Below are positions 15,372 to 50,278 of a DNA stretch of 64,000 nt, piece after piece. Positions within the stretch are counted from its first letter, which is position 1. Every line of letters starts with the position of its first letter. The notes under the pieces were generated by a model, which saw only the letters and a program-made list of their open reading frames with translations, searched no databases and was not told the origin of the DNA. The translations under genes were made by a program, and so were the position numbers. The stretch is from Thalassospiraceae bacterium LMO-JJ14 (GTDB taxonomy: Bacteria; Pseudomonadota; Alphaproteobacteria; Rhodospirillales; Casp-alpha2): the NCBI GenBank assembly GCA_021555105.2, contig CP134604.1, positions 1,984,001 to 2,048,000 on the forward strand, written 5' to 3'.

Positions 15372-15451
15372 TCCTTATAAAAGAACAATAATAAATATAT
15401 TCAACCGCAGTGAACGACGAAAAAGCGTTATCGTTCATAGGGTTGCACAAA

Positions 15452-27400: not shown

Positions 27401-28318
27401 TCGAGCGTCAGCGAGAACTTCTCTATAGAAGTTGTTGCGATCGGTACGGAAAATGACGGTGATTCGGCTGAATCTTCGGTTGTTGCGCTTGAAATAGAAG
27501 TTGATATCGACGATCCGGTGGAAATCAATGGGACCTGGCAGAGCGAAACCCTTGAGGGTGGTAGCGGTGCCGACACGATTTCCGGCAATGGTGGCCATGA
27601 TCAGCTTTATGGTGCTTCCGGCGATGACATTCTGAATGGCGGCGACGGTAATGACTCGCTGTTCGGCGAAGCCGGCGACGATGTGATGGACGGTGGTACC
27701 GGCCACGATTACATGTCGGGCGGTGCTGGCAACGATACGCTCAGTGCCGGTGACGGCGACGATACGCTAGATGGCGGTGCCGGTAACGACGACATGTTCG
27801 GCGGCTCGGGGCATGACGTCATGCTGGGTGGTGACGGAAATGACAACCTTGTCGCCGGTGACGGTGATGATCGTCTGTATGGCGGTGAGGGTGACGATAA
27901 CCTCGATGGCGGATCCGGCCACGATCGTCTTTATGGCGGTGATGGTAATGATGTGATTAGCGGCGGATACGGAAACGACACTATCGAGGGCGGTCTGGGC
28001 GATGATGTGCTGACGGGTGGCACGGGCCAGGATCGCTTCGAGATGGATGCCCAGAGCGGCCACGACATCATCCAGGATATCATGGATCAGGATACCGTTG
28101 TCTTCGAAGGTCAGGAGTTCCATGCCGACGACATGATCTTCAACGAGAACGAAGATGGGGACGTGGTCGTATCCTTCGCCGGTGTAGAAGGCCAGTCGGT
28201 GACGCTGAACGGCGTCAGCATGGACGACCTGGACCGCAATGGCGATGGCGATATCAGCGACGGATACTCGATTACGGAAACCGACGGCCAGGTATCACTG
28301 ACTATCGACACGAATTAA
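15452..28318 (+). CDS. Giant type I-secreted adhesin: FecR-like N-terminal module, cadherin-like repeats, DUF4114-like and LamG-like inserts, C-terminal RTX array
   Basis: I prefer the ATG at 15452 (AGGG 9 bases upstream) over an in-frame GTG at 15410 with no ribosome site; this gives 4288 residues. Order: a short N-terminal segment; residues about 144-263 a FecR-like/retention-module-like domain (GEVFAIRVDGTRVRLELGD and following); an acidic linker; a first RTX block (about 491-656); then about 21 repeats of 100-115 residues with the core LSITISGVPxGAxLSAGT and GLTITPP. Inserted among them are an unknown domain (22600-23000), a VCBS-like unit carrying a further insert (23960-24900), a DUF4114-like domain (25270-25780, GGGDNDFND) and a LamG-like domain (26550-27190). 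Eighteen RTX nonapeptides and a C-terminal secretion region end it. It is probably exported by a type I system and surface displayed. A LapG-like protease gene lies 2.5 kb downstream. Confidence 0.88.
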   Translation: MADEILAGGEAVQTGENAFSIDGSQTGDINLPENLSVADADFSFEGGDLVLTFPDGTTVTVEGYQDNPNPPTLMSADGAEVGSDVVSAMADAGAPAGGDAPAGEGAFGFIQPEQAEAMQAAEQSSGNVTDSPNVITGTDGEPIGNIESLQGEVFAIRVDGTRVRLELGDQVFQGDILESGPEGNVGILLADETTFAMGPEGRMVLDEMIYDPATQQGSVSMSVLQGVFTFVSGQVAKTDPDAMTLDTPVATIGIRGTQVGLDIRDGESLNVHLMEERFGFVGEVVVVNDAGVQVLNDANAFTSVASFDAAPSPFQIVGIEDILSSYADETLRFLPTRNSEGERTSANTFDENQEVDGENRESLDFLNDFQTDAGGPQEQTPADTIRVTGELQDLNIIEQARADLNDDNPFIDEESAKQVNEAKAETVVEENVEEIVEDDATVVLPSDIQDLINAGTLKGVTVSADGRTVTGSVDGDFDATGLDYTFVLTGGEGDNVITTGSGDDTLSGTGGDDVLNGGAGDDTFIASPGAGDDTYIGGEGNDTITFAASDDDLIINLTNGTARDDANFGGIGNDTIIEIENVVGGSGDDIIIGNEFANVLEGGAGDDFIDGRDGQDTAVFSGTYGQSTITIVDGVLRVTGPDGTDTIENVENFAFTESPNIVVGLEDTAMSIDIVDHLPAAANATSIVVRGLPEGAQLLPGTELEDGSWLLESGDLEGLTLTGATNSAEDFSLSISAYNTDYLDAVTQAAENYLATQLDPETDEPLQTLEEFLADGGSVLELANGEAQAFLTGEAGSGVVAVEVIGIVDPFSITVDGIELTADGSASSITFAGTEDQEVALNIAGALTDTDGSEVISVSISGLPTLEVQQVTTQVPLLDEEGEPLLGEDDEALFEEVTSWEPVTDDAGNTVGAHLVYTDAGGNDVILPANDTGTYELTGAQLNNLRLVGAPDDSADFSLEITAQVQDGESTATVFGSATVELAAKADVPTVNGGAEAGIEDQPVNISFDIDKNDISEHITDVTLTGIPEGSKLSIAYTDPDTGETFPLQIPVVGGEANIPLQFLGADMSTDGLVLTPPAHLSGSFDLQLEVTSTEPTNGDSAINFFDIPLTLTAVADELGVTINDTTVVDGDALSINTGEDGTFALDISALTADTDGSEVISVTISGVPSGAVLSAGTENSDGSWTLTPEEFDGLSITPPVDSDENFDLTVTVTNVDNNEDTVTLEATVSVDVEAIADAANLSATDAAGMEDTPIALDIASSLNDTDGSETLSITISNVPDGATLSAGTDNGDGTWTLDPADLGGLTITPGLHVSGEFNLTVTATTTEAANGDESVVSQQIGLSITPDPDTPVVNVTALTGNEDTDIPLNIDAALVDQDGSETLSISISGVPDGAVLSAGTNLGNGVWDIDPADLANLTITPPADSNVDFTLQVTATATESNGEFIETTADIPVNLLGVADAPNLDAGEALGLEDTMIPLNIITSLNDTDDSETLSITIENVPDLAIVFVGGERADMVDGVITLTPDQLGDVKILPPAGSDEDFDLLITATTTENDTAESGNGQGVSSVSGTLSVIVQETADPPALMLFDTAGNEDTPAPLNIAAILTDADETLSVTVSGIPEGVTLSAGTYNDADGTWTLEAGDLAGLSMTMPENYSGDFNVSVEATSTTDDGTFATTSGSFNVAIAGVADDADLNLTDISADEGTEIPLNIDAGLADTDGSETLSITVSNIPEGSILTNALGDVLSIVDGSVELTSGQLEGLTMTTPPGMDTDFTLQVTATTTENDADATANGQGVSSVSGVINIDMNAVAEVPTLVLQDASGNEDQPIALDVSAIVADASETLSITIAGVPDGAMLSAGSNNNDGTWTLSPAQLEGLTITPPTDSNENFQLEVTATSTEQDGTSASATGSISVGVTGVADAPILNTSDISGLEDGAIPLNISANLTDTDGSEDLSITIAGVPNGAQLSAGTKNPDGSWTLSGAQLDGLTLTPAADTSGNFSLTVTATSTENDGDSSSVTGLMNVSVDAVADAPTLILHNAAGFEDDAIPLEISTAATGGDEIVGVTISGVPNGASLSAGIDNGDGTWTLTEAQLDGLTITPPDSSNANFNIGVTVTSMDGDDLAETSQSLSVSVTAVADKPTLNVPSQIIADGLDAVDLDIQSALNDLDGSESLSINISNIPDGAILNIGDTILNVVGGTIDLDPSQLSGLQITAPPGFDGNFTLQVTATARDTDPDSDIPTGLETSISIGFIDVEVDGVVINDPDAPELNLEDTQGFEDSLIALDIDANLTDPSETLSLTITGVPAGASLSAGTDLGNGTWSLLPEEAAGLTITPPDDSNTDFDLTVTATSTTDDGEVATTTGTIAVDVVGVADDPNLNASVGEGVASGEGIRDIPAFEHGLSNVVMYLDDGNGNIEKVRVEDFPGGEGEIHDVNDIDLLGFISENYPGTELVALTVKAGNNGGPLVGPGEGELFLIDPGVAASGLPLLDSVDETLSFDNSFADHLGGTVSDGMTAFPLDISASLNDLDGSESLSITITDLPAGVTLSAGEQVDDSTWVLTEAQLDGLQINVPQGVDPDFDFDVTATATENDGDTASVSTTVGIDGDDEAEAPDLEVSAAEGNEDNAIALDISAALTDTDGSETLSITISGMPNGAELSAGTDNGDGSWTLTPEQLAGLTVTPPEDSDVDFTLSVEATSVEQSTGDTAVTTGTIPVTVNAVADAPNVAAGDGDGDVGQTVPLDIQSILTDTDGSESLSITISGFPEGASLNAGVDNQDGSYTLNVADLDGLAISLPDGASDDFDLSVTATSTELSNQDQASNVVTAAINVDPLASDDRNVVEIGEVTSGNVLTGDGDSVDPSGAADVGSESGNSVVDVSFGGVTKSFTNPEDVQSDADGNFIEIAGDHGTLKMYADGSYDYAADESEAVSHVAGLTGTANGAAVEEAWSGVQTFAFDFGTSYLNASGQLDPSLADAEISFASNGIGVEGTQSGMPAPDQINHDNDTGQSEALGMNLGGETSSATLTVSNLFNNEDGGEQGVWQAFDADGNLVGEGVLNASTVDYSGSSNVGTAEIALPDGAPFQYLVFTATDTGGDNNQNDSSDFFIRALQFETNAAEGGEDAFTYTMQDADGDTATATLSIDVSEEQDTTASDPTLNATDAAGLEDNAIALDIAAGLGDLDGSETLSITIAGVPSGAELSAGTLVSEGVWSVPPGNLAGLTITPPDDSNEDFALTVTATSTEANGGDTSTTTATINVDVTGVADAPTLTASIGEGVETSTTSDITITNMGEISAGYNNSYGYYVKDEDGNPGEGMIIWSNAKEDIGDTFTIEGVDPDSIGFFVIPNGGNENGNLGNETPVSFTQDENGNWHAVDANGHTLGEAGPSVLFDDTALNNNNTDYTTDNAVGGNQNWEDLYGGGDNDFNDVNVNVEVTNSSTGGMVEYPLNITSSLTDTDSSESLSITVAGLPEGAELSAGTQNNDGTWTLTPGQLAGLTLAVAAGSADFDLSVSAMSTENDGDTAVTSTTLAVEVPAFDSTADGVNLTAGDVSGNEDTAIALNIASSLNDTDGSESLSITISGVPNGAVLSAGTNNNDGTWTLDDGDLDGLTITPPADSNEDFTLSVSATGTEGEGGETSIQTASFDVDVVGVADGASVSATATLAEGHSGGGSTQTNGQTGSGSGHGSGSGSGEGSDLVAFFEVTENDDNGEINNSEGRNDGELHGVTLNHDSDGPSGSSAVFDGNNDYVEVDHRGSMEMDSGTFVLWFNTENADSKQGLFSKDSSGYDGGGHLTAFVDDGQVQVRMQSTNSSFMVQGGDISSGAWHQMAFSFGPDGMRLYVDGNQVDSDNYSGGMSGNEEPLVFGANQWASGNEVANNLQDFFRGQMDKMAVYDRPLTPTEIANLHDDGVQQMTNSDGEALVYDLDIEGSLVDVDGSETLSFEVRGLPDGVELSAGQSDGNGTWMLGTGDLEGLTMTVDSSVSENFSIEVVAIGTENDGDSAESSVVALEIEVDIDDPVEINGTWQSETLEGGSGADTISGNGGHDQLYGASGDDILNGGDGNDSLFGEAGDDVMDGGTGHDYMSGGAGNDTLSAGDGDDTLDGGAGNDDMFGGSGHDVMLGGDGNDNLVAGDGDDRLYGGEGDDNLDGGSGHDRLYGGDGNDVISGGYGNDTIEGGLGDDVLTGGTGQDRFEMDAQSGHDIIQDIMDQDTVVFEGQEFHADDMIFNENEDGDVVVSFAGVEGQSVTLNGVSMDDLDRNGDGDISDGYSITETDGQVSLTIDTN
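17430..27510 (+). repeat. About 21 tandem cadherin-like repeat units coded in the giant adhesin
   Basis: Units recur roughly every 330-345 bases where uninterrupted, for example near 19200, 19530, 19860, 20230, 20560, 20930, 21250 and 21590. Each starts with an ED-x-x-I-x-L-x-I strand and a D-T-D-G-S-E-T-L-S-I motif and ends with a G-V-A-D linker. Units diverge at the DNA level, so they are old protein-domain duplications rather than recent DNA repeats. Confidence 0.85.
27557..28042 (+). repeat. RTX calcium-binding nonapeptide array (18 units)
   Basis: Eighteen consecutive 9-residue units of the form G-G-x-G-x-D-x-[LIM]-x are coded without interruption (27 bases each). They form a calcium-binding beta-roll, the hallmark of type I secretion substrates, which folds after export into calcium-rich medium. 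The remaining 92 residues downstream would hold the uncleaved secretion signal. Confidence 0.93.
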
Positions 28319-28385: not shown

Positions 28386-30698
28386 TTATTCCGCGGCGTC
28401 TTCGATGGTGGGGTCGACCCGGAAATGCGCCCAGCGCCGCATGCCGCCCCGGTTTTCCAGATAGTTGATCAGAGCCGTTACCGGCTTCCTGTCGAACTTG
28501 CTTTCCGACATTTCCATCATGATATCGGAAACTTTTCTGAACGGCATGGCGCCGCGATAGGCGCGTGGACTGACCATGCCGACAAAGGCATTGGCGACGG
28601 CCAGAATCCGCGAGGTATGAATGATTTCTTCGTCCTTAAGGCCAAGCGGCCCTTTGCCGTCCCATGTTTCGCCGAACTGGCGGATGGTTTCCACAACTGG
28701 ACCTTCGAAGGTAACGTGTTCTATTAAATCGACCGTCGTCAGGTAGGCATTAGAGACAAGCATCCGTTCTTCATCGGTCAGGTCCTCGGTCTTCATCAGC
28801 AATTCTTCAGGGACGAAAATCTTGCCGAGATTCATCAGGCTGCCTGAGATGTCGACGGTGCGCACGTCGATGTCCTCCATCCCCATTTCCTGAGCGATGG
28901 CGCGAGAAACTTCGGCAACGCGCGATGAATGGTTTGCCGAGAACGGATCGCGGCGGTCGACGACGCTGACCAGGGTATCGATCAGCTCCTTCATCATCTT
29001 TTCGGATCTGAGGCGCGCCAACTGTAATTCGGTGATGTCGTCGATGACCAGAAGACAGCCCGGCGGATAGTCGCGGTCGCCACGAAGTGGCAAGCCGTCT
29101 ACCTTGACCATCTGATAGGCATTGTCGTCATCGGGATCGGTAATTTCAGGGTCGCCGAATTCGAACAATTTCTGCTGGCGTTCGAAATCATCGATGACTT
29201 TTTTCACAAGCCCACCGTATTCCTGTGCCTTTATCGGGCCGATAACGCTGGCCATGGTCTTCCCCTTGATATCCGTGATGGGAATACCGTTGGCCTCGGC
29301 AACAGGCATATTGGCAAATGTATAGACGGTGTTGCGGTCGACGGCGACGATCTGCGTCGGCTGGTTGTCGGTAACCATGCGCATGAACTTGGTCAGGTTC
29401 TCGAAACGCTCCAACATGACCTGTGCGCGATGCAGGGCTTCGGAAGCGCGGGCAGAGGCTGCGTTCTTCCAGACGAACAGGATCGTCAGGGAAACGATGA
29501 CGATGATCGCGATAAACACACCGAGGATGAAGTTCAGCCGATTTTCAATCGGCCCCAGCGCCTCGTCGCGCGAGACCTTGCGGACCAGTATCCATGGTAT
29601 CTGCGCAACTTCGCGAGATACCATCAGCACGCGGTCGCCGCTGTAATCAAGGTTGTTGACGAAGCTTCCCGGAATATTGATGGCTTCGGAAACCGCAAGG
29701 TTCGGCGATGCCAACGCCATGGTGCGTTTCAAGGCCGCCGTGCCGTCGCGTAGCGGCGACAGGTATTCGACCTTGCCGCCGGACTTTCTGACCAGCAGCG
29801 TTTCGGCGGTTTTCGTCAGCGTGCCAGGCTGAACGAGCTGGTCCCAAAGAGATGCGTCGATAAGGCGTATGCCGATTACAGCGCCAATCCCCTTGGCACC
29901 GGCGCCGCCGTCCTGCACGGCATAGACCGGCAAAGCAAAGCCGATGGTGGGTTCGCCGCTGGCGCCCAGATACATGTCGATAATAGCAGGGTCGCCATCG
30001 AGCGCCTTGCGCACAGCTTCCTTGATGCGCCCTGTGATCGGCGGCATGTCTGGCGTTGAGATGATCGGTTCGGCATTCTTGTCGACGAGCCCAAGGCCGG
30101 CAACGCCGACACGTTCTACGTTGGCGGCAATTTCGCCGACCGGTGGCGGTGCCTTGAAGGCCGTGCGCTCGGCCGTCGCTATCAAAAGATTTCTGAGGAA
30201 TCCATGCGAGGCGCTGGCACCGATACCGGCACCCCCCGCGCCACTGCCATCCAACCCTTGAAGCAGCGAGTCGGCGGCTGAAAGTTCACTCGCAGGCGCG
30301 GCGCTCGGGTCGGTTGCGGGGGCAGCAGATGCCAGTTCGGACATGTAAAGTTGCAGTGACGCATTTTGCGTCAGTTCGCGCATTACCTTGAAATTGTCAT
30401 CGATCCAGTCGTTGACGGCGCCAACCCGCGAATCGGCAACAATGCCGAGACGGACCTGCCAGGCTTGCGTCTCGCGCTTCAGTTCCTCATCGACATAGAC
30501 TTTTGCAAGGATTGCCGCGCCGATAATCAGTGTTGCGATGAATGCTACGCCGGCGATGAAGAACTTGTTAACTTTACGTGGAGGGAGCGCATCGTTCGGC
30601 AATTCCTTCTCATCGGTCGCGCCGGCGGATGCACCGTCTTGCTTGTTCGGTTTTTCTGTTTCTTCTGTCACTTTCTTGCGGCGAAGACTTAACGCCAT
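28386..30698 (-). CDS. Inner-membrane sensor with Cache-like periplasmic domain, PAS domain and degenerate HD-GYP domain
   Basis: The 770-residue protein has a basic cytoplasmic start, a TM helix near residues 44-66, a large periplasmic region (to about 390) of the Cache sensory type, a second TM helix, a PAS domain (about 440-540) and a C-terminal HD-GYP-like domain (about 580-750). In the last domain the residues that define the family are lost. The HD dyad (normally LLHDIGK) reads SLMNLGKIFVP; the HHExxDGxGYP motif reads FGETWDGKGPLGL; and the DxxDAL motif reads NAFVGM. It is therefore unlikely to hydrolyse c-di-GMP and may be a receptor or scaffold. It lies between the giant adhesin and, in divergent orientation, the LapG-like protease, as expected for a LapD-like regulator. 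Function is inferred from context. Confidence 0.82.
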   Translation of the reverse strand: MALSLRRKKVTEETEKPNKQDGASAGATDEKELPNDALPPRKVNKFFIAGVAFIATLIIGAAILAKVYVDEELKRETQAWQVRLGIVADSRVGAVNDWIDDNFKVMRELTQNASLQLYMSELASAAPATDPSAAPASELSAADSLLQGLDGSGAGGAGIGASASHGFLRNLLIATAERTAFKAPPPVGEIAANVERVGVAGLGLVDKNAEPIISTPDMPPITGRIKEAVRKALDGDPAIIDMYLGASGEPTIGFALPVYAVQDGGAGAKGIGAVIGIRLIDASLWDQLVQPGTLTKTAETLLVRKSGGKVEYLSPLRDGTAALKRTMALASPNLAVSEAINIPGSFVNNLDYSGDRVLMVSREVAQIPWILVRKVSRDEALGPIENRLNFILGVFIAIIVIVSLTILFVWKNAASARASEALHRAQVMLERFENLTKFMRMVTDNQPTQIVAVDRNTVYTFANMPVAEANGIPITDIKGKTMASVIGPIKAQEYGGLVKKVIDDFERQQKLFEFGDPEITDPDDDNAYQMVKVDGLPLRGDRDYPPGCLLVIDDITELQLARLRSEKMMKELIDTLVSVVDRRDPFSANHSSRVAEVSRAIAQEMGMEDIDVRTVDISGSLMNLGKIFVPEELLMKTEDLTDEERMLVSNAYLTTVDLIEHVTFEGPVVETIRQFGETWDGKGPLGLKDEEIIHTSRILAVANAFVGMVSPRAYRGAMPFRKVSDIMMEMSESKFDRKPVTALINYLENRGGMRRWAHFRVDPTIEDAAE

Positions 30699-30852
30699 GC
30701 CGTACCCCCCAGATGATCGATCAGATTATCGTCCCGACGCATCAGGCATGATAACCGGTTATAAAGACAAGCGGAATCCCTTCATTTGCAGGCAAGCAGG
30801 TTGTGTTTCTGCGCACTTTCATGGATTTGCGATTGGGTATATATTCGTAGCT

Positions 30853-31611
30853 ATGAGAACAAAATTCTCTTTTGTAATCAATAGTCTGCACCATGCTGCA
30901 TATTGTGTGGCAGGTAATCGCTGCAAGGCCCTATGGCGTTATGTTTTGGTGGCTTCCATCATCACTATGACCGCCGTTGCAAGCGTGTCTGCCGCTTCAG
31001 CGGGCGAATCGCCACAACCGAGCTTTTTTAACACTGTTGAGGTTCGTTCGAAAAACCTGTCGCCGTTCAAGAAATGGCTGTCCGCTCTGGCTCGTTATTC
31101 CAAGGAGGCGAAGGCTCCGGCCAGGGTCCCCTGTCCGCCGGGCGATGAACTGCATATCTGCAGTTACGACGACTGGACGAACTTCCTGAAAACACTGAAA
31201 GGCAAGGCGCCGCTGGTGCAGTTGAACGAAGTCAACAACCGTATCAATCAGGCGAAATACATCACTGACTCGGCAAATTGGGGAAAGAGCGATTACTGGG
31301 CGACCCCGGCGGAGTTTATGGCCCGTTTCGGCGATTGCGAGGATTATGCAATCCTAAAGTATCTGTCGCTCAGAAGGCTGGGCTGGAAGGAAAACGACCT
31401 GCGCGTCGTCGCCGTCAAGGACCTCAACCTGAAGGTCGGCCACGCTGTTCTGATCGTGTTCTTCAAGCACCCTAAAACCGGGCAGATTCTGCAGCTTTTA
31501 CTGGATAACCAGATCAAGACCATCGCCAACGCGGCAAGCATCCGCCATTACCAGCCGGTTTTTTCCATCAACAAGTACTTCTGGTGGCGGCACACGCCGG
31601 TCACGGGATGA
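30853..31611 (+). CDS. LapG-like periplasmic transglutaminase-like cysteine protease (BTLCP family)
   Basis: I place the start at the ATG at 30853: the open frame extends back to 30538, but that would overlap the divergent HD-GYP gene, while 30853 gives a 252-residue protein with a signal peptide (hydrophobic stretch ending ASVSAASA). The mature part has the BTLCP catalytic triad order: Cys162 in GDCEDYA, His197 in GHAVLIV and Asp218 in LLDNQ. The conserved N-N-x-I-N region and the W-x-T-P-x-E-F segment of LapG are also present. In Pseudomonas, LapG cleaves the N-terminal region of the giant adhesin LapA and releases it from the surface, and is restrained by c-di-GMP-bound LapD. The adhesin upstream is the obvious candidate substrate. 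Confidence 0.87.
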   Translation: MRTKFSFVINSLHHAAYCVAGNRCKALWRYVLVASIITMTAVASVSAASAGESPQPSFFNTVEVRSKNLSPFKKWLSALARYSKEAKAPARVPCPPGDELHICSYDDWTNFLKTLKGKAPLVQLNEVNNRINQAKYITDSANWGKSDYWATPAEFMARFGDCEDYAILKYLSLRRLGWKENDLRVVAVKDLNLKVGHAVLIVFFKHPKTGQILQLLLDNQIKTIANAASIRHYQPVFSINKYFWWRHTPVTG

Positions 31612-37408: not shown

Positions 37409-37762
37409 TCAGGCGTGACGTTGGCAGTCAATGCAGTTGGGCGCGCTGGGATCGTTTTGCAGCCGCTTGAGGGCAATATCCTCATCGCAGACGGTGCAAA
37501 AACCATACTCGCCGGTTTCGATCCGCTCCAGGGCTGCATTGATCCTTTGCCGTTCAATGTCGCGCCGGCGTTCGGTTTCAAGCTGCATCGCCTGTCCTTG
37601 TAGGGCGTCCATACGCGAAACCCGGCCGACGGATGTCTGATCCAGCTCGACAGGCTTCCTGGACTCGGCGGAGATATCCGAGAGCGCGTCCAGTTCTTCC
37701 CGCATTTTTAGCAGACGTTTTTTGAACTCATTGATCTGTTTTTTGCTCAAAGACACGGTCAT
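37409..37762 (-). CDS. DksA/TraR-type C4 zinc-finger protein
   Basis: The 117-residue product has an N-terminal coiled-coil helix pair and a C-terminal C4 zinc finger, C-T-V-C followed after about 17 residues by C-I-D-C, as in the DksA/TraR family. Such proteins enter the RNA polymerase secondary channel and alter promoter response. It overlaps the end of the HlyD gene by ATGA (37759-37762) and so is the last gene of secretion operon 1, an unusual place for a transcription factor of this class. It is shorter than DksA itself. Confidence 0.88.
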   Translation of the reverse strand: MTVSLSKKQINEFKKRLLKMREELDALSDISAESRKPVELDQTSVGRVSRMDALQGQAMQLETERRRDIERQRINAALERIETGEYGFCTVCDEDIALKRLQNDPSAPNCIDCQRHA

Positions 37763-39057
37763 CGCTCCCTGAGTGCATCCTGCATGCGCCCGACAAGTGG
37801 GTCGAGAATATATTCCATCACTGTCCGCGAGCCGGTCTGGATCGACGCGATGACCTGCATGCCCGGAAACAGGTCGTAGCGGAGCTTGCCGTCTTCGAAG
37901 AAGCTCTTATCGGTTGAGATACGCACCTTGTAGAATGGTCGGCCTTCTTCGGTGACCAGTGTATCCGGCGATACCCGTTCGACGGTGCCGCGCAAATCGC
38001 CGAATTTCGCGGCATCGCCTGAGGCCAAGGTCACCTTTGCTGTCTGTCCGGCACGCACATAGCCAATATCCTGGGGCGGAAGCTGTGCCTCGATAATCAA
38101 CCGGTCATCGGCGGGTACGATATCGACGACCGTTGTTCCGGCGCGGATCACACCGCCGACGCTGACCACATGCAAGGTCTTGATGATACCGTCGACCGGC
38201 GCGCGAAGAGTGGTGCGGTTCAGGTTGTCTTCTACCTTGCGCACGCGTTGCGACAACTCGTCCATTTCGCGGGTGACTTTATCCAGTTCGGTTTGCGTTT
38301 CTTCACGGAACGAGGCCCGGATGGTTTCCATGTTCGAGCGCGCCTCGCCTAGCGCTGCGCGAAGCCGGGGCAGGGCGGCTTCGGATTCGTCGATGCGGCC
38401 GCGCAGATCGGCCCCTTCCTTGAGCAGGTTGAGGTGCAGCATGCGGTTGGTGAGTTCCTGCGCCAGCAGTTTTTCGGAAATCTCTATCTGCTCGGTGATC
38501 AGTTTCAGGCTTTTCTGGGCACTGGTGCGGCGCGCCTGCACTTCCTTGATTTCCAGTTCCCGCTGACGGATGGCATCTTCCTGCGCTCTGATTTGTCCAA
38601 GCATGCGTTTTTTTCGGGTCTCGAACAGGCCTATTGCCTGGCGGATCAATTCCGGCTCCGCCTTGACCAGAGCCGGCGGGAATGCGGGTTTGTCATCCCC
38701 TGCCAATTCAGCCTTGTAACGTGAAATATCGGCGAGCAACGAGCGCAGACGAATTTTGAGTTCCTGCACGTCGGCACCACTTTGCGTCTGTTCCAGTTCG
38801 ACAAGCGGCTGCCCGGCAGTGACGAGGTCGCCTTCGCGGACCAGTATGGCGCGCACGATCCCGCCTTCCAGATGATCGACGGATTGCACGTTGGTCGAAG
38901 GTGCCACCTCGCCGGTGGCGACCGAAACGATATCCAGTTCGGCATTCGTCGCCCAAATCGAAAACGCCAGAAGGGCGGCAATGCAAAGTCCCAAGAACAT
39001 GTGCGTGCCGCGTTTGACCTCGTCGTCTTCCGGGGACGTCTGGATTTCTTCACTCAT
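37759..39057 (-). CDS. HlyD-family type I secretion membrane fusion protein (operon 1)
   Basis: The 432-residue protein has a short cytoplasmic start, one TM helix (about residues 22-40), an HLEGGIVRAILVREGD lipoyl-type motif, a long alpha-helical hairpin (about 110-270), a second lipoyl half and a C-terminal beta-barrel ending in the FPGMQVIASIQTG and LDPLVG segments of type I adaptors. It bridges the ABC exporter to TolC through the periplasm. It overlaps the ABC gene by four bases upstream and the DksA-like gene downstream, so translation is coupled. Confidence 0.93.
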   Translation of the reverse strand: MSEEIQTSPEDDEVKRGTHMFLGLCIAALLAFSIWATNAELDIVSVATGEVAPSTNVQSVDHLEGGIVRAILVREGDLVTAGQPLVELEQTQSGADVQELKIRLRSLLADISRYKAELAGDDKPAFPPALVKAEPELIRQAIGLFETRKKRMLGQIRAQEDAIRQRELEIKEVQARRTSAQKSLKLITEQIEISEKLLAQELTNRMLHLNLLKEGADLRGRIDESEAALPRLRAALGEARSNMETIRASFREETQTELDKVTREMDELSQRVRKVEDNLNRTTLRAPVDGIIKTLHVVSVGGVIRAGTTVVDIVPADDRLIIEAQLPPQDIGYVRAGQTAKVTLASGDAAKFGDLRGTVERVSPDTLVTEEGRPFYKVRISTDKSFFEDGKLRYDLFPGMQVIASIQTGSRTVMEYILDPLVGRMQDALRER

Positions 39058-40733
39058 GATGCGTTCTCCGCGCGTACCACACGCGGCTTGTTCTGGCGCA
39101 GGACCGGTGTCGGCTTGCTGTCGAGGTCAAGGATCAGGGTTGCTGCGCTGACGATCTTCGGATTGCGGGAAAAGGCGATAATCGTCTTGCCGCGGCGCGC
39201 CATATCGATCAGGGCGGAATAGACGAAAGCGGTCCCCTCATCGTCCAGGCTTTCCGTCGGCTCATCGAGCACCGCCAGCTTGCCGCCGATAAACATGGCG
39301 CGGGCAAAAGCAAGCCTGCGGCGCTGTCCGAGCGCCATGTTCAACCCGCCATTGGCAAGCACCCTATCCATGCCGTCAGGACTTTCGTCGACAAACGGGC
39401 CAAGCCCCACTTCGCGGACGATGCGCATTAACGTCTCTTCGCTTTGCCCCGGATTAGCGGCTTCCATATTGGCCCTGAGCGAGGCATTGATGAATGTCGG
39501 CTCCTGGGGAAGATACATAAGTTGAGACCGCCACCAGCCGGGGTCGAGTTGTTTCAGGTCGACGCCATCAGCCAGAACCTGTCCTCTTATCGGGTGCAAC
39601 AGACCTGCGGCGATTTTTGCCATTGTCGACTTTCCGGCCCCGTTGGACCCTGTCACGACCATCACGCCGCCCGGCGGTAATTTGAAATTTAGACCTTCGA
39701 ACAGCGGGGCATTCGCCCCCGGATAGGCGAATGACACATCACGAAATTCGATTTGGCCATTGAACTGGCTGAGCTTGGCGCCCTTTTCCTGTTCCACCGG
39801 TAGGGACGCGAACTCGCGTACCTTGGCCAGGGCATTTTCGGCTTTGGCGAAGCTTTCGCCGAGTTGGGCGAACTTGATCATCGGGCCAAGCGTGCGTGCG
39901 GAAAGGATATTGGCGCCGATCAAAAGCCCGACATCCAACTGGCCACGCACGACAAGCCAGGCACCGGTGGAATATATGAACACACTCATGAGTGCCTGTG
40001 CGCTCTGCGTCACCGATTGCACGAGTGCCTGCCTGCGGGCAATCAAGGCACGCAACAGGCGGGAGCGTTCACTAGCCTTTGCCCAGGCTTCAGTGACGAG
40101 GGAACGGCCACCGAACGCACGCACGGTATCCGTCGCCGTATTGGCGTTGCTCAACAGGCCGGCCACTTCGTTCTGTGCGCCGCTGAGGGTCGCCATCGGA
40201 CCGCGAAGACTGCGTTGTGATTGCACCGCGAACAGGAAAATCACGATCAGAAAACCGATGGCGATCATAGCCAGATGCGGGCTGAGCAGAAACAGGGCAA
40301 CAGCGAATAGAAGAGCAAACGGGACATCGATGACGGCGGTAATGTTGCCGGGTGTATAGGCGTTCTCGACAAGATCCAGGCCGCGCACGACTTCACGCCG
40401 TTCGCCGGCGGGGATTCTCATCAGCGCCATGCTTTCAGCAGTCGTCAGGATGCCAAAAGCGCCGGTCGACAATTCGTCGTCCTTTTTGGCGCTGAGACCG
40501 CGCGCCAGCTTCATTCGGGCCTGCCGGAAGCCGAGTTCCAAGGCGATTGCAATCAGGACTCCCGAGGCCAGTGCGGCAAGCGTTGCATCGACACCCTGGC
40601 CGACATAGCGGTTCAGGACCTGAATGACGAACAGTGGCGAGGCGAGTGCCAGAATATTGGCAAACAGGGACGCCGCGACGATTTCGGCGGTTAACCCCGG
40701 CTTAATCTTCAGGCGTCTGAAAAACTCACCCAT
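39054..40733 (-). CDS. Type I secretion ABC permease-ATPase (operon 1)
   Basis: The 559-residue half-transporter has a transmembrane domain (about 1-300) and a nucleotide-binding domain (about 330-540). Walker A is GSNGAGKST, Walker B is KLAVLDEPTE with the catalytic glutamate kept, and the Q-loop segment is LPQEPTF. The ABC signature is atypical (MALGQRRR instead of LSGGQ) and the switch histidine is replaced (AFSRNP where HR is usual). There is no N-terminal C39-type domain, as in PrtD/AprD-like exporters of RTX proteins. It probably forms a homodimer energising export of a large RTX protein. Confidence 0.9.
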   Translation of the reverse strand: MGEFFRRLKIKPGLTAEIVAASLFANILALASPLFVIQVLNRYVGQGVDATLAALASGVLIAIALELGFRQARMKLARGLSAKKDDELSTGAFGILTTAESMALMRIPAGERREVVRGLDLVENAYTPGNITAVIDVPFALLFAVALFLLSPHLAMIAIGFLIVIFLFAVQSQRSLRGPMATLSGAQNEVAGLLSNANTATDTVRAFGGRSLVTEAWAKASERSRLLRALIARRQALVQSVTQSAQALMSVFIYSTGAWLVVRGQLDVGLLIGANILSARTLGPMIKFAQLGESFAKAENALAKVREFASLPVEQEKGAKLSQFNGQIEFRDVSFAYPGANAPLFEGLNFKLPPGGVMVVTGSNGAGKSTMAKIAAGLLHPIRGQVLADGVDLKQLDPGWWRSQLMYLPQEPTFINASLRANMEAANPGQSEETLMRIVREVGLGPFVDESPDGMDRVLANGGLNMALGQRRRLAFARAMFIGGKLAVLDEPTESLDDEGTAFVYSALIDMARRGKTIIAFSRNPKIVSAATLILDLDSKPTPVLRQNKPRVVRAENAS

Positions 40734-40853: not shown

Positions 40854-43595
40854 CTACCTGTCCGAGAGCGTAAGAGGATCGATGGTGACCGGTTGATACT
40901 CCATATTTTGCAGGATTTCACCACCGGTGCTGAACAAATCCCCTAAAAAAGAAATTATGTTTGGTTTGTTCTCTTGCTGATCGACTTCGGAACCAACAAC
41001 TGCTTTGCGGGATACGGTTTCAGTTGCCGAGCTTGATTGGGGCGCCGTAGCTTCTTCCACAGCCTGCTTGAATGTCTGGCTGGAAACTGGCTTGGACTTC
41101 CGGGCGTCGTCAGCAAGTTTGCGCTGATGTGCGGCTTCGAGGAACTCGAGCAGGTTGAAATTCGAACCGGTTTCATTGCTTTCGGCTTTGATCGAAGACT
41201 TATCAGCCTCGATGTCTTCGACAGATGCAGCAGGGACGGATGCGACTTCGACAACAGCGGGCGCTGCCTCAGCTTCGTCAATTAGCGGCACAGTATCTTC
41301 ATATTCATCCGCTTTGTGTTCCTGTTTGGCGGTCTGCTGTGATTGCTCAAAAAACGAAGCAACGTTGCCAAACAAGGTGGAAATCGGGTCTTCGTCACTG
41401 ATTGTGGCGGATGTGCTGGATGTTTCAGCAGACATTTCATCCATCACGGCAGTGTCTGATGCGAGTATATCGCTGCTTTCGATGGCGGAAGCGGGAACCG
41501 GCGTTGCCTTTGGCTCCAATGGCGCGGCAACGCTTACCTCTGTCGACGGTGATGACGAAGTCGAAGCCTGGTCTGCCAGAGATGCCAGATGGGCAGCTTC
41601 AAGGAACGTGAAGACATCTTTTAAGAACGTGCTGCTATTCCCGGTATGCACCTGATCATCAGAAATCGTTGCCGGTGTTTCCCGGGGGGAAACCTCGGCA
41701 ATTTCGGCATAATCTGCTGCCGGCGACGTATTATCGCCTATGGTCACATTGTCGCGTGTATCATCGGCTTGAACAGACTCTTCCGCTTCGATGCCGGCAT
41801 TAACATCTGTGGCAGTAGCCTTGGCATCGACACTAGTATCGCTGTCAGCAGGCAGGGTTTGCCTGACGCCTGCGATGATCAGCGCCGAATTATCGCTGCT
41901 GGCAAATTCATCATCGTCCATGGCTTCGACAGCTGTAAATGTATCCGCATGGGCGTCAAAATCGGCAAATGAATCATAACGCGATTTTGGTTTAGGCGGA
42001 TGGTTCGGCTTTGACAATGCCGCACCGGATTGTGATTGGCCAAAGGAAACGATGGTGTCCGGCAGGGCCGCAACATCGGGGGATTCGATCTTTTGGAACA
42101 AAGCATTCAGGTCTTTGACGGAGCGGCCGCCCGCAACGGTCACGTCCGGCTCAATTTCGCTGTTCTGCCGGCCCGTCGCAGGGGTCACCGGCAGAACCGG
42201 TGATGGTGCCGGTATTTCGGCGGCGGGCGCCGAAGCCGGAAGTTGCCCCCGAGGGGCTTCAATGCCCTTGGATCCGGTGATGACGTCATATTCTAGCTGC
42301 CCGGTCGCTGCCAAAAGGCCGTAGGCGGCGATCAGGACGTCGGTTTCCGCCGAAAAGGCATCGGACTTGGCATTGATCAGGTTTGTTTCACCGGACAGCA
42401 CATCGATCAGCGAGCGCCGCCCGAGTTGGCGTTCGTTTCGCGCCAGTTCCAGGAAGGCGGCGGCAATATTGGCCTGATTGTTCAGGTGCGATGCCGTCTG
42501 CTTGGCCGTATCGAGCTGCTGCCAGGCATTGCGGACCTGCTCTTCGATATTGCGGCGGGTATCGGCGGCGGTGAAGGTGGTTGCGCTCAAATCACTTTTT
42601 GACGCCTTTAATGTATTAACGGCCGTAAAACCGAGATTGAAATCAAACGTCATCTCGACCTTGGCCAGAGTTTCCTGTTCGGCACCGATGGTGCCGCCGA
42701 CGTTTTTCTTGAATTTGCGTTCGCTGCTGGCTTCGATTTTTGGGAAGAAATTGTCGGCACGGGCAATGCGGACATCCTCGACGGCAATATCCGCGGCGAG
42801 AATGGCATTCTTCAGGGATGGATTGGATTCAAGTGCAATATCAGTGGCTTGTAGAAGTGTCTGCGGTAAATACGATGCCGGGAATGGAACCTTTTCCAGA
42901 GTTGACAGATTGTCAGGCCTGCGTCCGTAAACAGCTTGAAAACGGTTCAGGGCATTGATCAGTCCACCTTCGCTCTGGGCGCGGCGGGCCTGGGCACCTG
43001 CAAGCTGGGTCTTTGCCTGCAATACGTCCGTTGAAAAACCAGAACCCAGAACCACAAGCGCCTCTTCGAGACCGGTTTGACGGCGGATGTTCTCTTCTGA
43101 GTCCTTGGCAAAACCAAGGGCTGCGTTTGAACGGATGACGTTCATATAGGCGGTGATGGCTTCCAGGATCAGCGACTGGCGCGTTTCAATAAGGCCATAT
43201 CGGGCTTCTTCGACCTGCAGTCTGGCTTTGTCGATAGCGGCGTTTGTGGAGCCGAAATCCCACAAAAGCTGGGTTAGCGAGATATCCCATTCATGAAAGC
43301 CGGTGCTTGAGTCATCACCGTTGTCGTTTTGCTGTTTTTCATGGCCTGCATTCGCGGTCTGGCCAAGGGTCGGATACCAGTCCCCCAATGCTTCGCGGGC
43401 ACGGTTTCTGGCTGCCGAAAGACGGGATTTAGACGCCCGGACACGATCATGGTTTTCAATAACGTAGGGCAGCAGAGCCTCAAGGCTCTCGGCCCGCGCG
43501 CCGGCCGGAGACAATGCGCATAGCACAACAGCCACCAAAACGATGGCGCTCACCGCGTACGCAGCCGCACTTACTGAAGGAATCCAGTCCTTCAT
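40854..43595 (-). CDS. TolC-family outer membrane channel with long acidic C-terminal extension
   Basis: A signal peptide ending in SPAGARA is followed by a TolC-like domain to about residue 445: an ESLEALLPYVIENH start, long helices with Q/N/A periodicity, and the E-x-N-L-x-x-A-K-S-D segment near its end, with duplicated halves. Normal TolC proteins end near here. This one continues for about 465 residues of low-complexity A/S/D/E/P-rich sequence with embedded short motifs: FLEAAHLASLADQA and FLEAAHQRKLADDA, and the related FGNVASFF and ISFLGDLFS. The extension should be periplasmic. The gene is first in operon 1, 120 bases before the ABC gene. It is the only TolC-type gene in the window, so it might also serve operon 2. 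Confidence 0.88.
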   Translation of the reverse strand: MKDWIPSVSAAAYAVSAIVLVAVVLCALSPAGARAESLEALLPYVIENHDRVRASKSRLSAARNRAREALGDWYPTLGQTANAGHEKQQNDNGDDSSTGFHEWDISLTQLLWDFGSTNAAIDKARLQVEEARYGLIETRQSLILEAITAYMNVIRSNAALGFAKDSEENIRRQTGLEEALVVLGSGFSTDVLQAKTQLAGAQARRAQSEGGLINALNRFQAVYGRRPDNLSTLEKVPFPASYLPQTLLQATDIALESNPSLKNAILAADIAVEDVRIARADNFFPKIEASSERKFKKNVGGTIGAEQETLAKVEMTFDFNLGFTAVNTLKASKSDLSATTFTAADTRRNIEEQVRNAWQQLDTAKQTASHLNNQANIAAAFLELARNERQLGRRSLIDVLSGETNLINAKSDAFSAETDVLIAAYGLLAATGQLEYDVITGSKGIEAPRGQLPASAPAAEIPAPSPVLPVTPATGRQNSEIEPDVTVAGGRSVKDLNALFQKIESPDVAALPDTIVSFGQSQSGAALSKPNHPPKPKSRYDSFADFDAHADTFTAVEAMDDDEFASSDNSALIIAGVRQTLPADSDTSVDAKATATDVNAGIEAEESVQADDTRDNVTIGDNTSPAADYAEIAEVSPRETPATISDDQVHTGNSSTFLKDVFTFLEAAHLASLADQASTSSSPSTEVSVAAPLEPKATPVPASAIESSDILASDTAVMDEMSAETSSTSATISDEDPISTLFGNVASFFEQSQQTAKQEHKADEYEDTVPLIDEAEAAPAVVEVASVPAASVEDIEADKSSIKAESNETGSNFNLLEFLEAAHQRKLADDARKSKPVSSQTFKQAVEEATAPQSSSATETVSRKAVVGSEVDQQENKPNIISFLGDLFSTGGEILQNMEYQPVTIDPLTLSDR

Positions 43596-43964: not shown

Positions 43965-46895
43965 GTGGAGTTTCTGAAACAGCTGAGCAAAAAACAGCTC
44001 TTCGGTCTCATTTTGGCATTGCTGGTGATTATGACGATAATCGGCTCGATTATCGCCAATTTCACCTATTTATCCGACGATGAGGACAAGACAGTCCGTA
44101 TTGCCGTCGTTGCCCCTCTTAGCGGTCCATTAGCGGTAAACGGACAGTCCCTGACGCAGGGGGCTGAATTGTATGCCGAAGGCATAAACGAAGCCGGCGG
44201 CATTCGCGGCGGGCGCGTCATCATTGATGTCTATGATGACAAGAACGATCCGAACGAGGCGCGCCGTATTGCAGAGGACCTTGGAGCCAATTCTTCCACG
44301 CTTGCCGTGATTGGCCATTGGAGCGTCGACACGACCAGGGCGGCAGCGCCGGTTTACCAAAAACATAACCTGCCGATGATTGCGCCAACGCCGCTGGATC
44401 GTGACATTGTCGAGGGAAATCCGGCCATTTTCTCGAGTGTATATGACACCAATCATGAAGCGGCTTTCGTCGCCAACTATACGAGGAACGTTCTAGGCCA
44501 AAAAACCGCTTCTATTATTCATGATTTGTCACCGCGCGGCTTACACATGGCGGATACATTTGAAGAGACCTACAAGCGCTTCGGGACGCGCATACGCTAT
44601 AAATGGGGATTTGACAGCAATAGCGCCGATCTGGATCAACGGATTGAGGAAATTGCCGCCGACTTGAAGCCCAAACTGGATGTCGGCACGGTATTCATCG
44701 CTGCAGAGGAAGATGTTGCCGCCAAGGTTCTACGGTCGCTTCGCGAAGCCAAAGCGAGAAACCCGGTGGTCGGTACGTCCATTTTGGCAACACGGGCCTT
44801 CCAGAACGCGCTTGGCAACGATGGTGAAACGATTGCCAGATATACGAACGGCATCGTGGCCTCGACGCCTTTGTTGTTCGATACCGCCAACGAAGAGGCA
44901 CAGGACTTCAATTCCCGTTATCAGAATAAGTTTGGCGCCACATCCGACTGGGTTGCTGCCTATGCCTTCGATACCACGCATTTAATTGTCGAAGGCTTCA
45001 AAGCCGGAGCGCGGGCCGAAGAAGAGGAGATCGTTGCCGGTGGCCGCCGCATGATCCGTGAGAGGCTTGCCGCAGCCATTGATCCCGAGACGGGTATTCG
45101 CGGCATTACCGGGGTTAAGACCTTCACACCCGATGGTGAAGCGAAATCGCCGGTCTTCATGGGGCGTTATGACGGCCGTGACATGGTGTCGGCACTGACC
45201 CAGTTACAACCTATCAAGGCCGGTGTTGCCGCCAACTTCATTGAAGAGCTGAAGAAGGGCAAGGTTTTGTATGTGAACGACCGGTTCATGTACAAAACAA
45301 ACGTCGTCTATACCGGGTTGCAGGTGAAGGAAGTTACCGACCTGGATATCGAAAAAGGTCAGGTGACGCTGAATTTCCTGCTTTGGTTCCGATACAGTGG
45401 CGATTTCAAACCGGAAGACCTGATCTTTTCAAATGCTGTTGAGCCGATCGTTCTCGATACACCCGCCGCCGAGCAGATTTCACGAGGCCTGAATTACAAG
45501 CTTTTCGAGGTCACGGGGAAGTTCAATTACAATTTCTCAAAGGTTAAGCGGCCATACGGCACGGTGCTGATCGGATTTGATTTCGCGCACCGCTTTCTGA
45601 ACCGCAACAACCTGCAGTACGTCACCGACGTACTTGGTATCGGTTTGGCCGGGAATACGACCTTCCAGACCATTCTTGAGCGAAATCAGGTAATCAGTGA
45701 AAAGCTGGACTGGGATATCGACCGGGCCTGGGTGTCGCAGGAAATTGTGCCGGTCGGCACACGTGGCGACCCAACCTATGTCGGGCATGGGTCCGTAGAT
45801 CCGCTGTTTTCGCGCATCACTATGGGCATTTTGACCAGCCCGGCGCGCATTAATGTCCGGGATTTCGTGCCGGAGGAATACTTCGTCTATCTGACAATCT
45901 TCGGCGTACTCGGAACGGTTTTTGCTGTGCTTATGGACAGGAAAAAGCACGGCCGCTTCTGGTCAGCACAATCGTGGATGCTGCGGCTTATGTCATGGCC
46001 AGTGCTTTTGCTTGCTGGCGGCAGCTTGCTGCTTGATTTTGCGGTGCAGGAACTTCAGGCAGGATACGTCGATATGATTGTGCTGGTCTACGACTGCCTT
46101 TGGTGGATCGTGCCGGCACGTATATGCGGCATTGCGCTTGAGCGGTTCCTTTGGGTGCCGCTGGAACAGCACACGCGGCGCATGGTGCCGAACGTTATAC
46201 GTATGTTCGGCTCGCTGAATATCTACATATTGGCGGCATTCGGCATTATTGCCTTTGTCTTTGATCAGAAAATCACCAGCCTGCTCGCCACTTCCGGTTT
46301 GCTGGCAATGATCATCGGTCTGGCAATCCAGGCCAATATCTCGAATGTCTTCTCGGGGATCGCGATCAACATAGAACGCCCCTTCGTCGTCGGTGACTGG
46401 GTCAAGATAGGCGACCTGGAAGAAGGGGAGGTCGTCGATATTACATGGCGGACCGTTCGCGTGAAATCACGGAACGGCTTTACCATCTCGGTTCCGAACG
46501 GACAGGCCTCGGAATGGCCGGTGCACAACTATACGGCGGGTAAGGTGACGCGATTGTCGTATAACCTGAATGTCGATCCGGATGTCGATCCAAGAATTAT
46601 CGAAGACGTATTGATGCGTGCCCTTCTCAAGTCCGAAAATCTGGTTAAGGAACCGAAGCCGTCTGTCCGCTATAATGGGACAGTCGATGGTTACAATGAT
46701 TGGGGCGGGCAGTTCTCGATCCAATATTGGATCGCAAATTATTCCATGCGCGAACAGATCGCTTCCGATGTTTGGGATAACGTCTGGGATGAGCTTGAAA
46801 AGGCGGGGTTGTGCGGCAAGGTCAGTCAGGTGGCTGATAATTCAGGAGAAGCAGCCGCCGGCACACCAGAACCGCAGTCGCAACCGGCACAGTAA
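43965..46895 (+). CDS. Chimeric channel: type 1 solute-binding domain, beta-sandwich linker domain and MscS pore
   Basis: Start chosen at a GTG (43965) with GGGGGA four bases before it; another in-frame GTG at 43944 has no ribosome site. The 976-residue product has a TM helix (about 12-34), then a periplasmic type 1 solute-binding domain of the LivK/AmiC kind (about 44-400), recognisable from VAPLSGPLAVNGQS, A-E-G-I-N-E-A-G-G-I-R-G and YDDKNDP. Residues about 430-560 form a beta-rich domain whose pattern (F-L-L-W-F-R-Y, then F-K-P-E-D-L-I-F-S-N-A, then a G-x-F-x-Y-x-F segment) recalls the extracellular domain of pentameric ligand-gated channels. About five TM helices follow, then a typical MscS core (AIIGLAIQANISNVFSG-like) and beta domain (ERPFVVGDWVKIGD, ISVPNGQASEW). 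A ligand-gated rather than purely tension-gated channel is an inference. Confidence 0.8.
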   Translation: MEFLKQLSKKQLFGLILALLVIMTIIGSIIANFTYLSDDEDKTVRIAVVAPLSGPLAVNGQSLTQGAELYAEGINEAGGIRGGRVIIDVYDDKNDPNEARRIAEDLGANSSTLAVIGHWSVDTTRAAAPVYQKHNLPMIAPTPLDRDIVEGNPAIFSSVYDTNHEAAFVANYTRNVLGQKTASIIHDLSPRGLHMADTFEETYKRFGTRIRYKWGFDSNSADLDQRIEEIAADLKPKLDVGTVFIAAEEDVAAKVLRSLREAKARNPVVGTSILATRAFQNALGNDGETIARYTNGIVASTPLLFDTANEEAQDFNSRYQNKFGATSDWVAAYAFDTTHLIVEGFKAGARAEEEEIVAGGRRMIRERLAAAIDPETGIRGITGVKTFTPDGEAKSPVFMGRYDGRDMVSALTQLQPIKAGVAANFIEELKKGKVLYVNDRFMYKTNVVYTGLQVKEVTDLDIEKGQVTLNFLLWFRYSGDFKPEDLIFSNAVEPIVLDTPAAEQISRGLNYKLFEVTGKFNYNFSKVKRPYGTVLIGFDFAHRFLNRNNLQYVTDVLGIGLAGNTTFQTILERNQVISEKLDWDIDRAWVSQEIVPVGTRGDPTYVGHGSVDPLFSRITMGILTSPARINVRDFVPEEYFVYLTIFGVLGTVFAVLMDRKKHGRFWSAQSWMLRLMSWPVLLLAGGSLLLDFAVQELQAGYVDMIVLVYDCLWWIVPARICGIALERFLWVPLEQHTRRMVPNVIRMFGSLNIYILAAFGIIAFVFDQKITSLLATSGLLAMIIGLAIQANISNVFSGIAINIERPFVVGDWVKIGDLEEGEVVDITWRTVRVKSRNGFTISVPNGQASEWPVHNYTAGKVTRLSYNLNVDPDVDPRIIEDVLMRALLKSENLVKEPKPSVRYNGTVDGYNDWGGQFSIQYWIANYSMREQIASDVWDNVWDELEKAGLCGKVSQVADNSGEAAAGTPEPQSQPAQ

Positions 46896-46925: not shown

Positions 46926-47369
46926 ATGTTTCTTGAGATCTTGAATAACGAACAACGTGAGGCGTTTCTGGTGCTCGCCAGCCGCATTGCCATTTCCGAC
47001 GGAGAGGACTCAGCCGAGGAAATAGCAGCCATTGAAAATTTGCGCCAGGAAATGGGGATTGCTGGCGAAATAGATATGAAGAATGTGCTGGCAGACATCG
47101 ATGTGTCGGCTTTCGATACGCACAAGTCCAGGGTGGTTGCCGCTTTGGAATTGTTAAGGTTGGCTTATGCGGACGAGTATATGCACGAGGCGGAAATTGC
47201 CGAGGTGCGGGAAGTCTGCGAGGCCATGGGCTTCCCTGAAGAATGGCTTTCCACCATGGGCGAATGGGCGACCCGCTTCAACGAAGTGGAAGGTGAGGAA
47301 CAGGAAGGCGAAATGGCGGAATACCGCGATGCGCTGATTGAACATGCGCACCAGATGATGGATGTCTGA
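46926..47369 (+). CDS. TerB-like tellurite-resistance-family protein
   Basis: A 147-residue all-helical acidic protein with the TerB-like repeat pattern: an F-L-V-L-A-S-R-I-A-I-S-D-G-E-D start, A-L-E-L-L-R-L-A-Y-A-D-E-Y-M-H and a paired-helix M-G-F-P-E-E-W segment. It begins 30 bases after the channel gene, so it is probably cotranscribed with it. TerB-domain proteins are thought to bind divalent cations and act at the membrane in stress responses; any link to the channel is a guess. It converges on speE. Confidence 0.78.
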   Translation: MFLEILNNEQREAFLVLASRIAISDGEDSAEEIAAIENLRQEMGIAGEIDMKNVLADIDVSAFDTHKSRVVAALELLRLAYADEYMHEAEIAEVREVCEAMGFPEEWLSTMGEWATRFNEVEGEEQEGEMAEYRDALIEHAHQMMDV

Positions 47370-49432: not shown

Positions 49433-50278
49433 ATGAACGATAGTGCACCCGAACAGAACGGCATGCGCGGCAAGCTTCTATTGCTTGTCGACGGACAGCT
49501 TTTCAACAACGTCATTATCGGGATTATCGTTTTCAACTCGATTGTCATCGGCCTACAGACATCGGATAGGGTCGTCCACTCGGTTGGGCCGTTACTGGAT
49601 ATACTGGACACTATCTTTCTGACGATCTTCGTTGTCGAGTTGATGATGCGGATCGTTTCGTACGGTGCCGGTTTCGTAAAGCGACCATGGAGCGTTTTCG
49701 ATTTTATCGTTGTCGGTGTTGCGTTGACCCCGGGGGCGGAGGCGTTTTCCGTCGTTCGTGCCCTGCGTATCCTGCGTGCACTCCGTCTGATCTCCCAGGT
49801 GCCGACGATGCGTGTCGTTGTCGAAGCGCTGCTGCGCTCGCTGCCGGGACTGGGATCGACGGCCATCCTGCTGCTTTTGATCTTTTATGTCGGTGGCGTT
49901 ATGACGACAGTTCTGTTCAAGGCGGCGTTTCCGGAGTTCTTCGGCGATCTTGGGGCTTCGATTTACAGCTTGTTCCAGATCATGACGCTTGAGAGCTGGT
50001 CGATGGGAATTGTCCGCCCCGTTATGGAAGTTTATCCCTACTCATGGCTGTTCTTCGTGCCTTTTGTCATCATAACGTCAATTCTGGTCCTCAATCTGGT
50101 CGTTGCGATCGTTGTCGACAGCATGCAGTCGGCCAAGGAAATGATGGCAGAAGAGGGGCGCGCCGAGCGTGAAGCCGCGGGCGAGCCCGCAGAAGCAACA
50201 TTGGAAAGTATTCAAATGGAAATGCGCGCCTTGCGTGATGAAGTCCGTGCTCTCAGGGTAGAGCAGGGTGAAAGCTGA
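49433..50278 (+). CDS. BacNav-type voltage-gated sodium channel
   Basis: The 281-residue protein has the single-domain six-helix plan of bacterial voltage-gated sodium channels. S4 carries the [10 protein letters not shown] pattern, with an arginine every third position. The pore filter is TLESWSM, matching the TLESW filter of NaChBac-type channels. The end of S6 ([12 protein letters not shown]) is followed by an acidic linker and a short C-terminal coiled coil, [14 protein letters not shown], typical for tetramer assembly. Roles in these bacteria include motility and pH or salt response. The stop codon shares its last base with the argS start (TGATG), so the two are translationally linked. 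Confidence 0.92.

Follow-up and report, generated by a model that had tools for sequence, protein, structure and literature searches.

A bacterial gene family joining a type-1 binding domain, a pLGIC-type extracellular domain and an MscS core, and its linkage to type I secretion and adhesin genes

The window, a stretch of 64,000 nucleotides, carries a gene in which a type-1 periplasmic binding domain (PBP), a beta-sandwich of the kind found as extracellular domain (ECD) in pentameric ligand-gated ion channels (pLGICs) and an MscS core follow one another. We regard this three-part architecture, with a pLGIC-type ECD in one protein, as close to certain. Relatives of the gene are frequently linked to type I secretion system (T1SS) genes. 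Its product may be a ligand-responsive MscS-type channel linking periplasmic chemistry to adhesin deployment, a reading that we slightly favour. The following features were assigned to the gene.

43965..46895, plus strand: coding sequence of 976 aa with PBP-I, pLGIC-type ECD, five TM helices and MscS core (ORF, Pfam, relatives, AF2)
43989..44066, plus strand: N-terminal TM/signal-anchor helix, residues 9-34 (AF2)
44091..45173, plus strand: type-1 periplasmic binding domain, residues 43-403 (PF13458, E 4e-40; LivJ 4gnr)
45288..45842, plus strand: pLGIC-type extracellular beta-sandwich, residues 442-626 (AF2 pLDDT 80.6; Foldseek/VIA; profile links)
45525..45566, plus strand: counterpart of the Cys/Pro-loop in degenerate form, residues 521-534, with G532 in place of the acidic residue (alignment with pLGIC relatives)
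45873..46259, plus strand: four TM helices ahead of the pore helix, residues 637-659, 663-696, 699-737 and 743-765 (AF2)
46272..46376, plus strand: MscS pore helix (TM3), residues 770-804 (alignment with residues 93-127 of E. coli MscS)
46338..46535, plus strand: MscS beta domain, residues 792-857 (PF00924, E 1e-15)
46548..46802, plus strand: MscS C-terminal cage domain, residues 862-946 (weak PF21082 match; phmmer; AF2 alpha/beta)

The frame is open from a GTG start at 43965 with zero internal stops, and an alternative in-frame GTG lies at 43944. An earlier note on this DNA had read a LivK/AmiC-like binding domain, a beta-rich domain, about five TM helices and an MscS core in one frame. All of these parts were recovered, and both motifs that it had singled out in the beta domain, W474-F-R-Y and P483-E-D-L-I-F-S-N-A491, are present. 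Pfam detected Peripla_BP_6 (43-403) and MS_channel_2nd (792-857), together with a weak match under the cut-off to MS_channel_3rd at residues 869-949. Between residues 404 and 790 no Pfam family was matched. In the full-length AF2 model (pLDDT 84.7, pTM 0.70) the anchor helix is followed, after the PBP, by beta strands at 442-626 and by five TM helices, the last being the pore helix. A fold search with this model was filled by PBP chains and gave little information on the remaining parts.

The fold of the beta domain was predicted separately, with AF2, for residues 405-632 from an alignment of 41 relatives (pLDDT 80.6). Foldseek returned AChBP as top match (E 4e-10, prob 1.0), and all 50 matches listed were AChBP or nicotinic ECDs. 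With VIA-align, all 50 chains listed were pLGICs. The best Z of 15.3 was obtained with GABA-A beta3; sTeLIC also gave Z 15.3 (rmsd 2.4 over 149 residues), and ELIC and nAChR were matched as well. That this domain is pentameric-receptor-like had been the riskiest call of the earlier note, which proposed a fold search with residues 430-560. With the longer segment every match listed was a pLGIC or AChBP, and none pointed to an unrelated family.

Since a common fold alone is not homology, sequence links were sought. A protein of 754 aa (L013) has the same PBP and beta domain as the window protein, followed by four TM helices that match the TM domains of GABA-A, GluCl and glycine receptors in phmmer. 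In hhalign comparisons, the ECD of the window family matched this PBP-ECD-4TM group with 98.7% (E 4e-16), and the group in turn matched canonical bacterial pLGICs over ECD and four TM helices with 99.1% (E 8e-19). Direct comparison of the family ECD with canonical pLGIC ECDs gave 71% (E 4e-5), and control comparisons with unrelated parts of the same proteins gave about 0%. An HMM of the family ECD was also searched in one class in which such genes abound, where 36 of 48 genomes were matched. Among the matches were PBP-ECD-4TM proteins (E down to 1e-19) as well as pLGICs of canonical size, 370-480 aa (E down to 1e-8); a separate pLGIC TM profile confirmed them. The joint alignment of the family ECD with its pLGIC relatives spans beta 1 to beta 10. 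The ECD profile found zero matches among PDB sequences and Pfam scans of the beta domain gave scattered weak matches only; domain identity was therefore taken from the folds and the intermediate sequences. PF02931 (Neur_chan_LBD) had no match in the window genome and was rare in the class and phylum samples.

A single scan of bacterial and archaeal genomes yielded 80 loci (L017-L096) with 33-89% identity, mostly full length, in which all three parts are kept in independent genomes. These relatives come from several proteobacterial classes and include Rhodospirillales, Magnetococcales, Desulfamplus, Thiotrichales, Gallionellaceae and others. Where annotated, the gene is named 'ABC transporter substrate-binding protein' and nothing more. 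In comparisons with the two nearest relatives, dN/dS per domain was about 0.01-0.05 (around 0.03) where computable, with dS near saturation, so the parts are under purifying selection; dN was lowest in the TM part. Recurrence in 80 loci and low dN/dS argue for a real, old and maintained family and against a misjoin. The earlier note had named a sequencing artefact joining two genes as a possible objection to its reading, and this was not upheld. Fusion of separate genes by artefact, or an unrelated beta-sandwich between the other parts, would agree with the unconvincing Pfam and PDB-sequence profile searches. Both are contradicted by the 80 independent copies and by the fold and profile evidence that ties the beta domain to pLGICs. 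As far as computation reaches, this alternative is refuted, and we consider it extremely improbable.

About 26 of the 80 loci stem from magnetotactic lineages or enrichments (Magnetospirillum, Magnetospira, Magnetococcales, Desulfamplus), which may reflect lineage sampling. Two rhizobial plasmid matches (H10-H11) were considered as partial architectures and rejected; the annotated H10 gene encodes a cNMP-domain protein of 504 aa, too short for PBP and ECD, and the H11 record is without annotation.

The pore was assigned by comparison with both channel types. The window protein has the beta-sandwich ECD of pLGICs and lacks their 4-TM pore (M1-M4): hhalign of its TM part against pLGIC M1-M4 gave about 0%, and MscS models matched this part instead. 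It also lacks the acidic residue of the Cys/Pro-loop, which is described as highly conserved in pLGICs (Tasneem et al., PMC549065). At this position G is found in 35 of the 41 relatives and D in two, and loop length is unchanged compared to pLGICs. Thus pLGIC-style coupling is not kept as such. Among canonical-size pLGICs, L148, L149 and the second ORF of L144 have VPIENH as Cys-loop in place of PFDxQ.

In phmmer searches the nearest solved relatives were MscS (E 5e-14) and YnaI (E 4e-12), with alignments to MscS chains extending to residue 951. L774, A775, G785, G798, N802 and F807 of the pore region are invariant in the 41 relatives. M782 and L786, which by alignment numbering we take to be the equivalents of the E. 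coli MscS gate residues L105 and L109, are nearly so. Because the two pLGIC hallmarks of pore and loop are missing while the Pfam match, the phmmer relatives and the invariant pore-helix residues all point to MscS, the protein was filed as an MscS-superfamily channel, one that may work like a ligand-gated receptor. With the five-TM layout of the AF2 model, the MscS cage would lie on the cytoplasmic side.

Two alternatives concern the pore itself. The protein could be a signalling receptor that conducts no ions, its channel core passing on conformational changes or acting as a scaffold of the secretion system. Some MscS subfamilies without observed mechanosensitivity (PMC4560390) and the operon-like T1SS linkage described below are in line with this. 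The invariance of pore-lining G785, L774 and A775 and the near-invariance of the gate among diverse relatives, together with the lowest dN being in the TM part, argue for a working pore, and we judge the idea decidedly unlikely. The protein could also be an osmotic release valve, as its MscS homology would allow, whose periplasmic domains are an inheritance without sensory function. This is very unlikely indeed, given that every periplasmic part is under purifying selection and kept in about 80 distant relatives, and that the window genome has four further MscS-type loci for the osmotic job.

The PBP superimposes on LivJ (4gnr) with Z 44.4 and rmsd 1.8 over 346 residues, in agreement with the LivK/AmiC-like assignment of the earlier note. 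It thus has both the two-lobe PBP-I fold and the Peripla_BP_6 profile. The ligand contacts of LIVBP, which we take to be S79, T102, Y150, Y202 and E226 (LIVBP numbering), correspond to V, L, R, E and S in the window PBP, the last three being aligned less securely. S79 to V and T102 to L are the surest of these changes, and the protein does not have the contacts of a LIV-type amino-acid-binding domain. Therefore the ligand is probably a different one, something other than an alpha-amino acid. The pocket positions vary within the family. With the contacts gone and the pocket variable, ligand binding by this PBP could have been lost.

A tree of PBP and ECD was calculated from 90 rows (69 with MscS pore, four with MscS pore and cNMP domain, 17 with four TM helices); it is unrooted and made with a quick method. 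MscS-pore and 4-TM members fall on two sides with starred support, some long branches being flagged. The 4-TM form, PBP-ECD-4TM pLGICs, comprises L013, L102-L106 and L136-L147. The simplest history consistent with this split is one pore exchange beneath the PBP-ECD module. The four relatives in which a cNMP domain follows the MscS core at the C-terminus (L012, L079, L153, L154) branch beside all other MscS forms, and such a domain is what would be expected of a regulated channel. Genomes G517, G491, G499 and G541 are among those that have both the PBP-ECD-4TM and the PBP-ECD-MscS form.

The context of the gene within T1SS and adhesin genes, absent from the earlier note, is what bears most on channel function. 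In the window the following genes were assigned.

15410..28318, plus strand: giant RTX-type surface protein of 4302 aa, likely T1SS substrate (ORF; RTX-type matches)
28386-30698: PAS/HD-domain regulator
30538..31611, plus strand: LapG-like periplasmic cysteine protease (PF06035, E 4e-17; NF045674, E 3e-27, below cut-off)
37759..39057, minus strand: T1SS HlyD-type periplasmic adaptor (PF13437; conserved neighbour)
39054..40733, minus strand: T1SS ABC transporter, LssB/LapB-like (TIGR03375, E 7e-105, below cut-off; conserved neighbour)
40854..43595, minus strand: TolC-type outer-membrane protein of the linked T1SS (PF02321; TIGR01844, E 3e-60, below cut-off; conserved neighbour)

The window locus has adjacent TolC, ABC and HlyD genes and a likely giant substrate. 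The RTX giant, the regulator and the LapG-like protease form a Lap/Bap-like adhesin locus upstream of the T1SS. Conservation of the linkage was counted by direct tblastn of the window genes against the 80 loci. These counts were preferred because the all-against-all neighbourhood clusters include wrong-strand ORFs in GC-rich loci. In 54 of the 80 loci, across several classes, homologues of the window TolC, ABC and HlyD genes are no more than 5 kb away from the channel gene. The gene order is channel-ABC-HlyD-TolC, channel-TolC-ABC-HlyD or TolC-ABC-HlyD-channel, and divergent in the window. In Azospirillum sp. B510 the channel frame and the ABC gene share 4 bp, the HlyD and TolC genes come next, and a divergent VCBS-domain giant is also present. 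At the PBP-ECD-4TM loci no T1SS neighbourhood was found, except for one partial TolC match at a locus edge.

A long, Cys-poor, acidic adhesin-like ORF adjoins the channel gene in 10 further loci. Four such ORFs were scanned, three from these ten loci and one from a T1SS locus. LamG and cadherin-like domains were found in the three from the ten loci (L023, L093 and L029), the L029 ORF having FG-GAP repeats in addition; the domain scan of the long ORF in L036 gave zero matches. Reading the remaining loci by eye revealed several more in which a long ORF poor in Cys lies immediately upstream; two loci were masked. This neighbourhood link shows co-inheritance, not mechanism.

The linkage also suits a mechanosensor of the adhesin apparatus, in which mainly membrane tension, or the pull on the periplasmic domains when the surface adhesin is loaded, would gate the MscS pore, with PBP and ECD docking to or modulating T1SS or adhesin parts instead of sensing small molecules. 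Kinship in sequence with the tension-gated channels MscS and YnaI, the retained hydrophobic gate positions M782 and L786 and the divergent PBP pocket fit such a sensor. PBP and ECD are shared with PBP-pLGICs that have no full T1SS neighbourhood and so have no obvious origin as an adhesin dock, the PBP retains the full LivJ fold, and the cNMP domains of relatives suggest ligand control. A mechanosensor of this kind is, in our view, unlikely.

For the ligand-responsive channel we propose the following working. The protein would be an inner-membrane channel of the MscS superfamily whose periplasmic receptor module, in which the type-1 binding domain sits on top of a pLGIC ECD, is common to PBP-fused pLGICs. 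Most likely, a small solute would close the PBP, which would then pull or twist the beta domain. Lying about 10 residues from the first TM helix, the beta domain could shift the outer TM helices, and this shift would open or close the MscS pore. Either the flow of ions or solutes that follows or the change of state itself might tune the secretion or retention of the giant adhesin by the T1SS, so that attachment would track local chemistry. A pentameric ECD on a heptameric pore poses a symmetry problem. Tentatively, and as somewhat less likely than not, we put forward a Cys-loop receptor with a swapped pore. In it, the receptor part of a PBP-pLGIC would gate an evolutionarily unrelated, probably heptameric MscS pore, the ECD ring would adapt to a different symmetry, and the whole would give giant adhesins secreted by the type I route a chemical sensor of their own.

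Fusions of PBP-I to true pLGICs are already known from B. japonicum and M. magnetotacticum (Tasneem et al., PMC549065), a study in which MscS is not mentioned. As in the window protein, PBP-I precedes the ECD in these fusions, and the PBP-ECD-4TM proteins found here share sequence homology with the window family over the PBP end and the ECD. In contrast to the five TM helices and MscS pore of the window protein, they have the 4-TM pLGIC pore. With the YnaI-like branch of the MscS superfamily the window protein has pore helix, beta domain and cage in common, and it differs by about 600 extra periplasmic residues with two receptor-type domains. MscS channels with an added ligand domain are known as bCNG channels (PMC4560390), in which the MscS pore is joined to a cytoplasmic cNMP domain; the window protein has no C-terminal cNMP domain and its candidate ligand modules are periplasmic. 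In the open-access literature we found no earlier account of a PBP/pLGIC/MscS fusion or of an MscS pore bearing a pLGIC ECD. Outside this family we know pLGIC ECDs solely in combination with the 4-TM pore native to them or, in AChBP, as free proteins. Ionotropic glutamate receptors also have an N-terminal type-1 PBP domain on a channel; second domain, pore and origin differ, and the likeness is an analogy only.

Lap/Bap-type adhesin systems consist of a T1SS, a giant adhesin and LapG, for which the window locus has counterparts. To our knowledge, no ion channel has been described as a component of a Lap/Bap system, and none of this type in adhesin loci was found in the open-access literature. 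The association of a channel gene with the type I secretion of giant adhesins is new here. It suggests that the loci for adhesin secretion in Azospirillum, in magnetotactic bacteria and in others include an ion channel that had gone unrecognised as one of their components. A natural pLGIC ECD on an unrelated pore would make it possible to separate the share of the receptor domain in ligand gating from that of the pore, and the same family raises the question whether an ECD ring must always have five-fold symmetry. A further suggestion is that bacterial ligand-gated channels have been modular, with PBP, ECD, MscS and cNMP parts exchanged.

Downstream of the channel gene, two further genes were observed. 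A small TerB-like gene (46926-47369) follows after about 30 bp on the same strand and is possibly co-transcribed; it is present in only six of the 80 relatives' loci. A second ion-channel gene (Ion_trans, voltage-gated-like, 49433-50278) lies 2.5 kb downstream with spermidine-type genes in between, and at L136 an Ion_trans homologue adjoins the PBP-pLGIC gene there too.
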